This document shows positions 3,536-37,625 of a DNA stretch of 40,012 nucleotides, piece by piece. Made by a program: the position numbers and the translations under genes. The stretch spans positions 1 to 40,012 of the IMG/VR virus record IMGVR_UViG_3300021077_000048; one strand, 5' to 3'. Positions within the stretch are counted from its first letter, which is position 1. Each line of letters begins with the position of its first letter. The stretch is from a virus. The notes beneath the pieces were generated by a model, which was not told where the DNA came from, searched no databases, and worked only from the letters and a program-made list of their open reading frames with translations.

Positions 3536-3774
3536 CATTTGAAGAATTTTTAAACGATAAATGTCCTTGTCATACAAACAATAGTCCTGAAGGGTTTGAA
3601 AAGTGGGAAGAGCAGTTAGATATTCAAGAGTTAGAAGATTTTGCACAAGAATATGGAGAATTAAAATATAACGAAGGGATAAAAAGCACAACGATAGCAA
3701 ATAAATACAATGATGCTTTAGAAATAGATGAAATTGTAGAACTAATTAAAAATCAAGGTAATATAAACTGCTAA
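3529..3774 (+). CDS. Hypothetical acidic protein
   Basis: This is an 81-residue acidic protein that starts right after repeat copy 3. It has a CPCH motif near residues 12-15 and a C-terminal Cys, with helices such as WEEQLDIQELEDFAQEYGELKY. No family is recognised. It lies in a run of tightly packed small genes (the next ATG is 2 nt after its stop) and is probably cotranscribed with the HAD phosphatase at 3879. Confidence 0.5.
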   Translation: MKTFEEFLNDKCPCHTNNSPEGFEKWEEQLDIQELEDFAQEYGELKYNEGIKSTTIANKYNDALEIDEIVELIKNQGNINC

Positions 3775-6484: not shown

Positions 6485-6493
6485 TTATCCACA
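6485..6493 (+). promoter_or_regulatory. DnaA box
   Basis: Perfect TTATCCACA in an intergenic region, just before the terminator and candidate small RNA. One of four perfect boxes in the window, all outside recognised genes. Confidence 0.6.
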
Positions 6494-7135: not shown

Positions 7136-7335
7136 TGAAAAGATTTAAAGAACACACTATTGTGATGTATAAAGGCACAGCTTGGCTTTATAATACATCT
7201 GACGAAGATGCTATCACTCAAAAGTACAAAGAGGAGCATCCTAACTTTAAGATTGTGATTTGTAATAATCACGAAATACTTGAAGTAAAATTCTGCGAAG
7301 TAGAATTACAATCAATGATTAAACAAGAGAATTAA
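7135..7335 (+). CDS. Hypothetical protein, paralogue of the gene at 6723
   Basis: This is a 66-residue protein that shares a YK..W / DPNF-like HPNF / EVEL pattern with the product of 6723-6911. It starts on the last base of the upstream stop and ends inside the stem of the next terminator (MIKQEN-TAA lies in ACAAGAGAA). Function unknown. Confidence 0.5.
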   Translation: MKRFKEHTIVMYKGTAWLYNTSDEDAITQKYKEEHPNFKIVICNNHEILEVKFCEVELQSMIKQEN

Positions 7336-7351
7336 TTTCTCTTGTTTTTTA
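7322..7351 (+). terminator. Terminator after the 6723-7335 cluster
   Basis: ACAAGAGAA / TTCTCTTGT perfect stem with a short loop, then TTTTTT. The stem includes the stop codon of the last gene. Confidence 0.85.
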
Positions 7352-7361
7352 TTCCACAAAG

Positions 7362-7370
7362 TTATCCACA
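7362..7370 (+). promoter_or_regulatory. DnaA box before RNA copy A
   Basis: Perfect TTATCCACA ending 8 nt before the -35 box of the RNA promoter at 7379. The same order (box, 9 nt, TTGCTA) occurs at 37617. Confidence 0.6.
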
Positions 7371-7378
7371 GTTTATAC

Positions 7379-7406
7379 TTGCAGATATTTTTTACGGGTG
7401 TATACT
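7379..7406 (+). promoter_or_regulatory. Promoter of structured RNA copy A
   Basis: TTGCAG, a 16-nt spacer, TATACT. The predicted start is near 7413, about 19 nt before the first conserved helix. Confidence 0.7.
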
Positions 7407-7412
7407 ATTTAT

Positions 7413-7706
7413 GTTAGTCATTTTGATTAACCACTAGACACCCACCCGATGAATCTTTTCAGTGGGTCTCCAGAGCAATCTGGAGGTCTAGTGAAAGGAT
7501 TTTTTTTGTTTTTAGTCTGGGGGTATAACTTGGGGACTTTAAATTGCCAAGTTCTCGTGAACCTTAAAGCTAGGGAAGTGCTTTACAAAACTCAAGGGTA
7601 ATATTCCATAGATTTATAGTTTAGCGTTTCTTATTTCCATTTTACATTTTTAAATGTTATGGGGGTAAGGGGGCGTAACTACAAAATCTAAGGGTAAGAA
7701 ATAAAT
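7413..7706 (+). ncRNA. Structured RNA, copy A (homologous to 36756-37043)
   Basis: This fills the 374-nt gap before the gene at 7710. A perfect three-way junction has no unpaired joints: P1 7432-7439/7486-7493, P2 7440-7445/7462-7467, P3 7468-7474/7479-7485 with a GCAA loop. The P2 loop (AATCTTTT, 7452-7459) pairs with AAAGGATT just after P1. Next comes AACTTGG/CCAAGTT (7527-7533/7547-7553), whose loop GGACT pairs with AGTCT upstream (7514-7518). Further down are an ACATT/AATGT hairpin and GGGGGTAAGGGGGCGTAAC. The word AAGGGTAA occurs twice (7594 and 7690). The second copy shares these elements with different bases. It either leads into the gene at 7710 or stands alone. It does not match RNase P RNA, tmRNA, 6S RNA or a group I intron by conserved core. 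Confidence 0.75.
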
Positions 7707-7709
7707 ATA

Positions 7710-8066
7710 ATGATATCAATACAAGAAATATTAGAACAAAGACTTAACTCTGCTCAGTCAAGAGAGAGTTTAGAGAAACAGTTAAAGGAAGATGCTGGAA
7801 AATACCACCAGAATTGGTTATTTGCTGTACAATGTTTTCAGAAGAGAGTTAATAAGGATTGTTTTAGGGAAGGGAAACGACAATATCCATTTATGGCTAT
7901 TCATCAGAAACTACAACATATTAAAGGAATCGACGACCTTCGATGGTTTTATCAAGAGTGTTTAAAATACTCATACCATAGAGATAAAAAGACAGGTAAA
8001 TTAAATAAATTTTCAAAATGCTTCTTTGGTGCTCTTAAGGTGGACAATAAAAATAGAAAGTATTAA
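7710..8066 (+). CDS. Hypothetical protein downstream of RNA copy A
   Basis: This is a 118-residue protein, Lys/Arg-rich and mostly helical. It contains LEQRLNSAQSRESLEKQLKE, then CFQKRVNKDCFREGKRQYPF and FYQECLKYSYHRDKK. No family is recognised. It begins right at the end of the structured RNA with no clear Shine-Dalgarno sequence (taaatataATG), so its translation may depend on that leader. The next gene follows by 9 nt. Confidence 0.55.
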   Translation: MISIQEILEQRLNSAQSRESLEKQLKEDAGKYHQNWLFAVQCFQKRVNKDCFREGKRQYPFMAIHQKLQHIKGIDDLRWFYQECLKYSYHRDKKTGKLNKFSKCFFGALKVDNKNRKY

Positions 8067-8075
8067 AATATAGAT

Positions 8076-8513
8076 ATGACAAAACTACCACAATGTTTTA
8101 TTTGGGACATAGATTGTACTATCTCCCACAAAACTAATAGAACTGCCTATGACTATTATAAAGTAGGAAGTGATGAAGTTGATAAACCGATGCAAATGGT
8201 CTATAAGGCATTGAAATTAGCCAACCCAGACACCTATTTTTTCTTTATTACGGGGCGTGAAGATTACTGTGTTAAGCAAACAGAACACTGGTTAGGAACA
8301 AATGGTTTTCAACATCAAGGATTATTCATGAGGGCAACAGGAGACAGACAGCCATCGGCAAACCTAAAGTTAAAATTATTTAGAGAGTTTATCGCTAATA
8401 AATACGAGGTGATTGCTGTTTTTGAAGACGAAGAACGCTGTGTAAAAATGTATCGTGAGTTGTTGGGATTAAAAGTTCTACAACCACAAGACGGACCAGA
8501 TAAAACTAGATAA
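8076..8513 (+). CDS. PNK-type 3'-phosphatase (T4 PseT phosphatase-domain-like)
   Basis: This is a 145-residue protein that covers the phosphatase domain of T4 polynucleotide kinase without the kinase domain. Motif I is WDIDCT (Asp11, Asp13). YDYYKVGSDEVDKP follows, then ITGRED (58-63), LFMRATGDRQPSANLKL (83-99, as in the MR..GD.R.D..VK pattern), and VFEDEERCVKMYRELLGLKVLQ (115-136). This enzyme type removes 3' phosphates or 2',3'-cyclic phosphates from nucleic acid ends, usually so that a ligase can act. The kinase and ligase are not in the window. It is the last gene of the plus-strand block before a bidirectional terminator. Confidence 0.85.
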   Translation: MTKLPQCFIWDIDCTISHKTNRTAYDYYKVGSDEVDKPMQMVYKALKLANPDTYFFFITGREDYCVKQTEHWLGTNGFQHQGLFMRATGDRQPSANLKLKLFREFIANKYEVIAVFEDEERCVKMYRELLGLKVLQPQDGPDKTR

Positions 8514-32968: not shown

Positions 32969-32998
32969 ATTATACAACAGGATTGTTGTTTTGTGCAA
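32969..32998 (-). promoter_or_regulatory. Leaderless promoter inside the GroEL 3' end
   Basis: TTGCAC, an 18-nt spacer, TATAAT, then AATTCT and ATG 32962. It would start a transcript for the 91-residue gene and portal independently of GroEL. Confidence 0.6.
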
Positions 32999-34559
32999 CC
33001 TCAGGCAATGGAGTTATTAACACCTCATAAGTAATGAAGTCTCCTGCAAAGTCAGAAGCATTAGAAAAGGAGGTAGAAATAACCTTCGTAGCATCAACAA
33101 TCCCAGCCTTAACCATGTCTGGCTCGTATTCCATAGTAATAGCGTTATATCCACCGCCATTTTCTTCAATCTTCTCTAAAATAATATCATCTTCTCCTCC
33201 ATTCCTTAGTAACTGTAGAAGTGGAGCAGAGCAAGCATGATAAATTAAGAACTCTCCATTGGTTAAGTTCTCACCTTTTAATAGTTTTTGTCCTGCCTTA
33301 AACAGTGCAGTTCCACCACCAGTGACAACCCCATCGTCTTTAACCTTCCAAACTTTCTTTAGGGAGTTAACAGCATCATCAACCTTATCTCTTAAATGCT
33401 TTAAGGCAGCTTCAGTCTTTGCTCCAACATTTAAGATAAAGATTTTACCAGTTAGCCTAGCAACTCTTTCCTCTAATTTAATCTTTGATACTTCATCTTC
33501 ACAAATAGCTAATTGTGCCTTTAGGTCATTAACATAACCAACTGCTCCAGTTATCTTTGAATCATCAATAAAGATAGTTGTATTCTTCATATTTAAAACA
33601 ACCTTCTTTGCGTTACCAAAATATTCTATCTTTGGAAAAATCATTCCCTTATCTCCAGTCATCGCAGTTGCTCCAACAATAGCAGCAATATCTTCTAAAT
33701 ACTCTTTCTGCATTGGCTTTTTAACCAACATTAAATTAAATTTACCTGCAAACATATTCTGCACAGCAAACTTTACCAAACGTGGGTCAATCTCATCACA
33801 AACAATTAATATATTCTTTCTTCCTTGCTTGGCAACCAACTCCTCCATCAATCCTAAAAATTCATTTGTAGGAAAATTTATCTGAACATCAGTAATTAAA
33901 ACAGCAACATCTTCAAGGACAGTCTCCATTCTATCTGGATTTTTAATTAAATATGGAGTTAGTAATCCTTGTCTAAATTGATAGCCTTCATCTTGTTCAA
34001 CACTGATACCAATATCTTTATGTTCATTAACATAAACAATACCATTGTCTCCAGCTTCATAAATAGTTTTTGCGATAATCTTTCCGTATTCTTCTGACTC
34101 AACAGAAGTGATGGCAAGTTTTTCTAAGTCTTCTAATGTCTGCAAAGTAACAACTGAATTTTTTAATTCAACTAAAACTTTTTCAGTTGCGTCCTTCATT
34201 TCTTTTCGCAACTTCATAGGACTTATTCTTGTATTTGAATTAAGCATTTCAACTCCATTCTTAGCTAGTGTGTAAGAGTTAATAATAGTGGCAGTAGAAC
34301 CATCTTCTAATTCAGCATTAGTATTACGAGCAACTTGCTTTAATAAATTAGCTCCTTGCTGTAAGGATAAATCTTCTGGAATAACTTGGTCCGCAATATT
34401 TTCTCCGTCATTACTTGCAACTGGAGTTCCTGACCATTTATTAAAAACTACATTGCGACCGTTTCCTCCGAAAGTTGGAGACACCGCGTCAAAGACTTCC
34501 TTCATTCCAGCTAATAATTTCTCACGAGCTTCTGCACCTCTAAATATTTTTGTTGACAT
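32970..34559 (-). CDS. groEL: GroEL-like chaperonin
   Basis: This is a 529-residue protein, close to the usual ~545. The N-terminus reads FRGAEAREKLLAGM (the FG.DAR..ml.Gv form). PTFGGNGRNVVFNKWSGTP matches LGPKGRNVVLDKSFGAP. ATP-site residues appear kept: Asp51 (NDGENI), Asp86-Gly87 in LEDGSTATI (GDGTTTAT, with Gly to Glu), and Asp395 in KVDDAV (catalytic Asp398 of E. coli). GVVTGGGTAL follows at 410. The Gly-Gly-Met C-terminal tail is missing. Being between terminase and portal, it may fold the capsid or another phage protein. The matching GroES-like gene is at 10563. A phage coding for both is uncommon. Confidence 0.93.
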   Translation of the reverse strand: MSTKIFRGAEAREKLLAGMKEVFDAVSPTFGGNGRNVVFNKWSGTPVASNDGENIADQVIPEDLSLQQGANLLKQVARNTNAELEDGSTATIINSYTLAKNGVEMLNSNTRISPMKLRKEMKDATEKVLVELKNSVVTLQTLEDLEKLAITSVESEEYGKIIAKTIYEAGDNGIVYVNEHKDIGISVEQDEGYQFRQGLLTPYLIKNPDRMETVLEDVAVLITDVQINFPTNEFLGLMEELVAKQGRKNILIVCDEIDPRLVKFAVQNMFAGKFNLMLVKKPMQKEYLEDIAAIVGATAMTGDKGMIFPKIEYFGNAKKVVLNMKNTTIFIDDSKITGAVGYVNDLKAQLAICEDEVSKIKLEERVARLTGKIFILNVGAKTEAALKHLRDKVDDAVNSLKKVWKVKDDGVVTGGGTALFKAGQKLLKGENLTNGEFLIYHACSAPLLQLLRNGGEDDIILEKIEENGGGYNAITMEYEPDMVKAGIVDATKVISTSFSNASDFAGDFITYEVLITPLPEVAQNNNPVV

Positions 34560-36678: not shown

Positions 36679-36708
36679 ATTATAGAACAAAAAGATATCC
36701 ACAGTCAA
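36679..36708 (-). promoter_or_regulatory. Promoter of the terminase operon
   Basis: TTGACT, an 18-nt spacer, TATAAT, 9 nt to ATG. A DnaA-box-like ATATCCACA (plus strand, 36695-36703, one mismatch) lies within it. Divergent from the RNA promoter at 36721. Confidence 0.8.
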
Positions 36709-36720
36709 CTAGTAAAACAC

Positions 36721-36749
36721 TTGACATTAAATTGCGGTGGGAATATAAT
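36721..36749 (+). promoter_or_regulatory. Consensus promoter of structured RNA copy B
   Basis: TTGACA, exactly 17 nt, TATAAT: full sigma-70-type consensus, the strongest promoter in the window. The predicted start (36756) is the first base of helix P1. Confidence 0.85.
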
Positions 36750-36755
36750 TTAATT

Positions 36756-37043
36756 GCTGGTGATATCGTATACAAAAATTCCCCTGCAAGTTTTTCCCGA
36801 AAGGGAGAGGCTCACACGATACCTCCAGCAAATTACTTGTTGGGGGATTTTTGTTTATATAGTCGTGGGGGTTAACTGGGCGACTTTAAACCATGCCAGT
36901 ATAAGCGTTGTGCTGTGTCGGCTAAAATAGACACCGAGAACTCAAGGCAACAATGCTTCTCTACTTTTCTAAAGATTTTTTTATCTTTGGGGGGGTAGGG
37001 GGGTCGTAACAACTTAAATCTAAGGCAACTATGAAAAATAAAT
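36756..37043 (+). ncRNA. Structured RNA, copy B (homologous to 7413-7706)
   Basis: P1 pairs 36756-36769 with 36816-36829 (GCTGG and TATCGT halves, 3-nt internal loop). P3 is GTTTTTCCC/GGGAGAGGC with a GAAA loop. ACAAAAATTCCCC (36772-36784) pairs with GGGGGATTTTTGT (36842-36854) across P1, the counterpart of the pairing in copy A. ACTGG/CCAGT (36875/36896) has loop CGACT, which pairs with AGTCG at 36861-36865. An AAAGAT/ATCTTT hairpin precedes GGGGGGGTAGGGGGG and CGTAAC. AAGGCAAC occurs twice (36944, 37022). No tmRNA, RNase P or 6S core is seen. The start coincides with the end of a consensus promoter spacer, so it is probably a real transcript. Confidence 0.8.
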
Positions 37044-37099: not shown

Positions 37100-37260
37100 A
37101 TTTAAGTAGACGGTGAAGCTCGCCGTTCCTATTGCCAGAGATAGTTCTGGGTAAAGGATAAACAACTGACATCAAACAGTATAAATTACTTAAAAAATAA
37201 TACTATCGGAGAATACTCCAACCCTATTTGTAGGAGCTCGAGCTTTAGCGTAGTGCGTTA
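37090..37260 (+). ncRNA. Candidate RNA C, tandem hairpins
   Basis: No ORF lies here. Successive stems are ACGGTGA/TCGCCGT (37109), TCCT-CCAGA/TCTGG-AGGA (37125) with a symmetric 4x4 inner loop, ACTG/CAGT, AGTAT/ATACT, GGAG/CTCC and CCTA/TAGG. The close order after a good promoter suggests a structured transcript. No terminator is clear. It is one RNA after copy B. There is slight likeness to the candidate sRNA at 6550 (CTATTGC; AAAATAATACT). Confidence 0.4.
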
Positions 37261-37544
37261 ATTAATTAAATTTAACCAAAACATCAAAATCCACATATCG
37301 TTTTTGGGGCTTAATCCATTCTATATCTTCTAACCCCAGAAGATACCCCTCTATGAGACGATAAAAAGACTTTTAAAGCTCTATATATAGTATGTTTTAT
37401 TCTTTAGAGGAGAGAGGAGAGGGTGAGGAAGGACCCCAACCTAATCCTAAGTATAACACTCTATACAGTTTAACTATTAATATATATATGAACGCTCGTT
37501 CACCTTTTCATTATCTTTAAGCTGATACTCTGCTTAGTTTACTA

Positions 37545-37616: not shown

Positions 37617-37625
37617 TTATCCACA
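37617..37625 (+). promoter_or_regulatory. DnaA box
   Basis: Perfect TTATCCACA, 9 nt before TTGCTA of a promoter-like tandem repeat, mirroring the layout before RNA copy A (8 nt before TTGCAG). Confidence 0.6.

Follow-up and report, generated by a model that had tools for sequence, protein, structure and literature searches.

ColE1 and the human mitochondrial origin at conserved sequence block II (CSBII) both obtain a primer for DNA synthesis as an R-loop, from an RNA started at a promoter and a G-rich stretch (PMC5043065, PMC6317783). The ColE1 primer precursor, RNA II, starts at a promoter ∼550 bp upstream and forms a persistent hybrid, and its cleavage by RNase H primes DNA polymerase I (PMC5043065); both ColE1 and the mitochondrial light-strand promoter (LSP) system require the G-rich stretch at the R-loop (PMC6317783). 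Phage HK022 has two put RNAs, both downstream of early promoters, each ∼70 nucleotides (nt) long and composed of two stem-loops (PMC9378689). The locus analyzed here belongs to the virus record IMGVR_UViG_3300021077_000048, all 40,012 bases of which constitute the window; the record is classed as linear, that is, its completeness is unproven. Judged from sequence, the window specifies two homologous, apparently promoter-driven, non-coding structured RNAs of ∼290 nt, copy A (7413–7706) and copy B (36756–37043), which together with copies C–H from other phages almost certainly form a real conserved RNA family. This family has neither a name nor an Rfam entry, and no description of it was found in the limited literature searched. 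The family itself is solid, whereas its function we infer: the favored interpretation, to which a probability of roughly 0.35 is assigned, is that the element acts in cis as the RNA from which the primer of a phage replication origin is formed, much as RNA II is for ColE1, but with a self-guide in addition.

The same RNA was found in eight further IMG/VR records comprising six distinct sequences, C–H, of which D and G are each represented by two near-identical records. The sample is thus eight distinct copies, all metagenomic and without a known host. Two independent motif scans of IMG/VR, one using the segment of U-run, AGTC, and G-run and the other using the G-run tail, reached identical loci; these collection scans were bound by motif patterns, and diverged copies will have escaped them. 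A further two phages came from relatives of the terminase, and in one of them (L008/L023, copy C) the RNA occupies the same place. A pairing-constraint descriptor applied to 1.19 Mb returned only the known copies under strict settings and the known copies with two chance matches under relaxed settings. A covariance model of the core, from which C was left out, recovers every copy but C. When B, D, G, and H alone are used to build the model, A, F, and E, all held out, rank first to third in 713 kb, at approximate E-values of 0.06, 0.09, and 0.17, respectively, compared with 1.7 for the next match. The carriers of the RNA, which include at least seven uncultured phages besides this one, differ in their structural genes.

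Neither the window nor the homologous loci contain a match to any Rfam 15 family at or above its gathering threshold, and the sub-threshold E-value matches are unconvincing. A nucleotide search of copies A, B, G, and H against named phages found no homologue, and copy H, the sole copy tried against plasmid records, retrieved no similar record, so that no likeness to ColE1 replicons is seen there. Exact and near-exact tail and core patterns gave chance matches only (loci L003–L006 were inspected), the tail pattern gave two matches in prokaryote genomes, both unrelated, and a third core pattern gave only G/H-type records and coding chance matches. The first-pass annotation of the window had taken the two regions for functional structured RNA of no known class, had called for an Rfam search and for homologues with covariation, and had named a protein-coding remnant as an outcome that would overturn it. 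Its proposal is upheld by the lack of an Rfam family at threshold, by the homologues with compensatory changes in other phages, by covariation in the core helix, and by the finding that no reading frame is conserved across the copies, a short one being common to A and F only.

The core of the RNA is an H-type pseudoknot in which the 5′ strand of helix S1 is followed by TGGGGG, the 5′ strand of helix S2, the 3′ strand of S1, a loop that usually starts with TTAAA or CTAA, and the 3′ strand of S2. In copy A, which like copy B and all features described for either lies on the + strand, the core spans 7514–7553, the match of the held-out model; S1 is formed by AGTCT (7514–7518) and GGACT (7534–7538), the G-run lies at 7519–7523, and S2, crossed by S1, is formed by AACTTGG (7527–7533) and CCAAGTT (7547–7553). 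The core of copy B (36861–36900) has S1 formed by AGTCG (36861–36865) and CGACT (36881–36885), a G-run at 36867–36871, and S2, likewise crossed by S1, formed by ACTGG (36875–36879) and CCAGT (36896–36900). S1 is paired in 100% of cells with seven double changes, and 0 of 500 column shuffles reach its covariation. The S1 pairing is specific to each copy, only 4 of 40,320 strand-swap permutations being equally good; the corresponding number for S2 is 140 of 40,320. The diverged copies thus share the core pseudoknot with compensatory changes, as members of one RNA family should.

Upstream of the core, seven of the eight copies have a domain 1, in which helices P1 and Pt cross, the 3′ strand of Pt continuing into a U-run; the hairpin located between P1 and Pt is usually capped by a GNRA loop. 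Copy G lacks domain 1 and begins directly with the core. Domain 1 of A (7432–7507), the layout of which recurs in B, C, D, and H, contains P1 (CACTAGAC, 7432–7439, with GTCTAGTG, 7486–7493), P2 (7440–7445 with 7462–7467), P3 (7468–7474 with 7479–7485, GCAA loop at 7475–7478), Pt (7452–7461 with 7492–7501), which crosses P1, and the U-run (7500–7507). Domain 1 of B (36754–36852) contains a two-part P1 (TTGCTGG, 36754–36760, with CCAGCAA, 36825–36831, and ATATCGT, 36763–36769, with ACGATA, 36816–36821), P3 (36791–36798 with 36803–36810, GAAA loop at 36799–36802), Pt (36774–36784 with 36842–36852), and an alternative terminator hairpin at 36822–36846. In each Pt a strand inside P1 pairs with a GGATTTTT segment just outside it, as AATCTTTTCA/TGAAAGGATT in A and AAAAATTCCCC/GGGGGATTTTT in B. 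The score for P1 crossed by Pt ahead of the U-run is reached by 1 of 300 dinucleotide shuffles for A and 0 of 300 for B, and by no more than 4 of 300 for any of A, B, C, D, and H. E and F are not significant in this automated test; F shows the layout by eye (AATACATTTTGA/TCAAAGTGTATT crossing GGCGAATC/GATTCGTC). Domain 1 of copy H (L119, 12731–12808) has a sub-threshold match to the Rfam SpF43 small RNA of 24.8 bits (gathering score 70), which probably reflects long perfect stems.

Downstream of the core, helix P7, accompanied in several copies by P6, surrounds an internal segment designated IR1; in B these helices (P6, 36905–36911 with 36950–36956; P7, 36915–36919 with 36930–36934; together 36905–36956) enclose or overlap IR1. 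In the following helix, P8, a pyrimidine tract pairs with the G-runs, largely through G-U pairs. P8 of A (7627–7673) has 12 pairs between a pyrimidine strand (7627–7638) and a G strand (GGGGGTAAGGGGG, 7661–7673) that flank an AT hairpin (7641–7658), and P8 of B (36956–37003) has 15 pairs between strands at 36956–36969 and 36989–37003 that also flank an AT hairpin. The UA/UA of most copies is replaced by UUA/UAA in A and F and is gone from both sides in E; permutation support for P8 is weak (1,812 of 40,320) because the strands are of low complexity. The last parts in 5′-to-3′ order are a short conserved CGTAAC-like stretch and a segment designated IR2.

All elements that the first-pass annotation had described as shared by A and B are present, namely the GNRA loops, the pairing across P1, the second helix, the loop pseudoknot, the AT hairpin, the two G-runs, CGTAAC, and AAATCTAAGG, each at the coordinates given there, and plain alignment of the two copies shows colinear motifs and pairings. 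Two of these elements are now read differently: the G-runs are the 3′ strand of P8, paired with the upstream pyrimidine tract, and AAATCTAAGG belongs to a direct repeat with AACTCAAGG inside the RNA. The copy-specific IR1/IR2 repeat, the helix between the pyrimidine and G tracts, and the DnaA-box setting had been missed. The description of the element as duplicated stands insofar as A and B are homologous, but they are of different subtypes, A being grouped with F and B with D, G, and H, so that a recent duplication within the genome is not required. A strong promoter directly before each copy had also been claimed. For B the claim stands, TTGACA-17-TATAAT at 36721–36749 matching the sigma-70 consensus at 12 of 12 positions, but the promoter-like site of A (TTGCAG-16-TATACT, 7379–7406), identified by eye, is weaker and falls below the scanner threshold.

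IR1 is present in every copy, 40–53 nt after S2, and recurs as IR2 ∼17–21 nt past the last G-run, in DNA directly following the 3′ end of the RNA. The letters of IR1 and IR2 differ among copies, including A and B of the same phage, and nearly match within each copy. In A, IR1 (TACAAAACTCAAGGGTAA, 7584–7601) matches IR2 (TACAAAATCTAAGGGTAA, 7680–7697), which directly precedes an open reading frame of 118 amino acids (7710–8066), the repeat being CTCAAGGGTAA/TCTAAGGGTAA; in B the pair is AAGGCAACAATG (36944–36955) and AAGGCAACTATG (37022–37033), in C CCTTCAATGGATAAA/CCTTCAATAAATAAA, and in D TCGTAATGAAGT/TCGTAATAAAGT. The two members are identical in E (AGGGAATC twice) and F (AGGAAGGT twice). 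When IR1 and IR2 are re-paired among the copies, 2 of 40,320 arrangements, identity included, equal the true pairing, and when three further loci (L094, L095, and L104, described below) are added, 0 of 200,000 do so, in a test based on short-segment alignments. A copy-specific direct repeat is therefore a feature of the family, weak in H and G. A target-site duplication was rejected as the source of the repeats, which occupy the same place in the RNA of all copies with conserved parts on both sides. Because A and B of one phage differ in IR1/IR2, a common protein site is unlikely, and protein iterons were judged unlikely on the same ground; the equality of IR1 and IR2 within but not between copies is better explained by nucleic-acid pairing with the DNA at IR2 than by a protein site in common. 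No complement of IR2 is found in a copy's own transcript above that of other copies, and the plausible partner of the repeat is therefore the template DNA strand at IR2.

Pairing of this kind is the center of the primer interpretation. Host sigma-70 RNA polymerase would start at the promoter beside the DnaA box, and the RNA would fold such that the core pseudoknot exposes the TGGGGG loop and the P6/P7 region exposes IR1. With the terminal G-runs and IR2 behind the polymerase, pairing of the upstream G-run and IR1 with the template (the C-runs and the IR2 complement) would hold an R-loop; RNase H or another nuclease would then cut the RNA near IR1, and host DNA polymerase would extend the cut RNA rightward. 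The order of TGGGGG and then IR1 in the RNA mirrors that of TGGGGG(G) and then IR2 in the DNA. This mirrored order, the IR1/IR2 pairing, the DnaA boxes, the skew minimum, the lack of recognized replication enzymes among the window proteins scanned, and the ColE1/CSBII parallel point, tentatively, to an origin.

The promoter and G-rich stretch of a ColE1-type origin are present, and the transcript and priming site are predicted. Like RNA II of ColE1/pMB1, the element would be a promoter-started, non-coding structured RNA in which G-rich sequence immediately precedes the proposed priming site, and dependence on host enzymes and action in cis are proposed here as well. It differs from RNA II in length (∼290 compared with ∼550 nt), in its different fold with two pseudoknots, in its IR1/IR2 repeat, in its phage location, and in that neither an antisense RNA I nor an Rfam match was identified. 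The human mitochondrial LSP–CSBII system is similar in that a promoter is followed ∼100–300 nt on by a non-template G-run cluster, which at CSBII is the R-loop primer site. However, CSBII uses an RNA/DNA G-quadruplex and has no conserved upstream pseudoknot, whereas the G-runs here pair with a pyrimidine tract in the RNA, on which account a four-strand G-quadruplex was set aside; a hybrid quadruplex at the G-runs is possible. The self-guide is a comparably tentative part of the proposal: the fold may present a short internal segment that programs the site at which this RNA invades the DNA of its own gene, and guide and site might then evolve freely as a matched pair, even between two copies of one genome. 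We know of no described origin RNA, antiterminator, or guide RNA that works by such a self-guide. The likeliest mechanisms for the RNA belong to known kinds, and the self-matching segment would be categorically new if it is a programmable self-guide.

The genomic setting bears on an origin in both directions. Genes on the + strand occupy 37–40 kb and 0.3–8.5 kb of the window, and late genes on the − strand (terminase, GroEL-like, tail) occupy 8.8–36.7 kb; if the record is circularly permuted, the early operon would begin at B, and A would lie ∼10.7 kb further in the same direction. Exact DnaA boxes, TTATCCACA, number 8 in the 12 kb near the elements compared with 12 in the other 251 kb, a 14-fold excess, and one exact or near-exact box lies 126–170 bp before S1 in A, B, C, D, and H. 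The box of A (7362–7370) is exact and upstream of its promoter, following an intrinsic-terminator-like hairpin (7321–7347, 11-bp stem and T-run) that parts A from the upstream operon. In B, a DnaA-box-like sequence with one mismatch (ATATCCACA, 36695–36703) lies between divergent promoters, and an exact box lies downstream (37617–37625). Copies B, C, and G (record G007) stand at the cumulative GC-skew minimum, which is weak evidence because the gene-strand switch is at the same place. No recognized polymerase, primase, helicase, or initiator is among the window proteins scanned.

Several of these observations weigh against an origin. The test window for DnaA boxes (−300 to +1200) was set after viewing the data, the enrichment is 2-fold (p = 0.015) with one mismatch allowed, TTATCCACA is present away from the elements too, and E and F have no exact box nearby. 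Of the G pair, G007 has the skew minimum at the element and G008 does not, and the third-codon-position skew of the two sides gives no clear direction. H and G have weak IR1/IR2 matches, of 6 nt and 9 of 10, respectively, the completeness of the record is a further reservation, and ColE1 is not, to our knowledge, a carrier of any IR1/IR2-like repeat. Within each phage TTATCCACA occurs several times (in the window at 6485, 7362, 30056 on the − strand, and 37617, and in other records as well), and it may be a site for DnaA or another protein used elsewhere, for example as an operator.

The main rival, which we regard as doubtful, is a put-like leader RNA that stays on RNA polymerase so that downstream pauses and terminators are ignored. 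The put RNA of HK022 binds the zinc-binding domain of the RNA polymerase β′ subunit. The positions of the copies agree with such a role, as they lie directly after strong promoters, B, C, and G begin an operon diverging from the terminase genes, and HK022 too has two copies per phage at the starts of transcription units; domain 1 moreover includes a terminator-like stem and U-run. That stem, however, precedes the core rather than following it, and from A to the convergent operon end at 8.5 kb there are just two small genes. Neither the size nor the fold of put is seen in A–H, ∼70 nt of simple stem-loops that lack a G-run tail and any internal copy of downstream DNA contrasting with ∼290 nt and two pseudoknots, and the copy-specific repeat and the DnaA boxes are left unexplained.

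It is unlikely that the element is a cis-regulatory leader of the next gene, that is, an attenuator or translation switch in which domain 1 would be a conditional terminator and IR1 and IR2 would compete for a partner controlling the start-codon region. The position of IR2 0–25 nt ahead of an ATG in A, B, C, E, F, and H is consistent with such a switch, as are the crossing P1 and Pt ahead of the U-run in most copies and the terminator-like hairpin in B. Nevertheless, D and G have no start codon close to IR2, G is entirely without domain 1, no gene or protein downstream recurs in every carrier, and the transcript holds no IR2 complement exceeding that of other copies.

A guide or template, too, would be expected to contain a variable internal stretch that equals neighboring DNA, and the RNA, comparable in that case to a bridge RNA, an omega RNA, or a reverse transcriptase template, might direct a protein to cut or recombine the DNA at IR2, either in cis or in trans. 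The bridge RNA of IS110 likewise has internal segments that match nearby DNA and vary among elements, but the fold here is another one, no IS110 recombinase adjoins the copies, and no element ends are found. Pfam scans detected no IS110, TnpB/IscB, or reverse transcriptase, no protein family is common to all carriers, and the copies do not travel with flanking terminal sequences, which makes a guide quite improbable. The least probable of these alternatives is a small RNA acting in trans on a host protein or RNA that it binds, either at full length or as a molecule of, for example, ∼100 nt ending at the U-run, with IR1/IR2 as a by-product. Domain 1 could on its own make up a terminated RNA whose pseudoknot is capped by a GNRA loop, but the best-conserved parts are the core and the P8 tail past the U-run, and G has no domain 1. 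A group I intron and an HDV-like ribozyme, considered for their pseudoknot topology, were dropped for want of an Rfam match and of the expected elements, and translational bypass was dropped for want of a conserved frame.

Three loci of other phages, L094 (− strand, near 3570), L095 (+ strand, 13063), and L104 (+ strand, 7840), have the P8 tail with a different 5′ domain. Their common tail comprises YYCUACYY, a hairpin, GGGGGGUAGGGGGGG, and CUGUACC, with AGAGAGGTGCAACTCCTCAA in L094 and L095, and they show short IR1/IR2 matches (GAATGA, AGAATA, and GAAATGA); they are possibly a second class of the same RNA. On the 3′ side of B (37110–37290) and of C (L008, reverse strand) there is a hairpin-rich non-coding stretch with common words such as GGATAAACA, which could belong to the origin region or represent a second structured RNA. 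In L007/G001, the closest terminase relative (74%), the RNA is absent upstream of the terminase genes and an unrelated hairpin-rich stretch (CCGCTCC...GGTTGCGG, CGTCTTTTTGC) is found there instead. Among neighboring genes, a GroEL-like chaperonin gene (32970–34559, − strand) adjoins the large terminase gene and occurs also in G001, G002, and G005, a protein with a polynucleotide kinase phosphatase domain is encoded downstream of A (8076–8513, + strand), and an endonuclease VII-like gene lies at 2246–2728.

The matched IR1/IR2 pairs lead to a sharp prediction, that function would be lost when one member is changed and restored when both are changed. If the element is an antiterminator instead, it would be a far larger, unrelated counterpart of put. 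If the primer interpretation is true, phages without recognizable replication proteins would start DNA synthesis by means of host enzymes, and the R-loop principle of ColE1 and mitochondria would extend to phages, with a programmable element.
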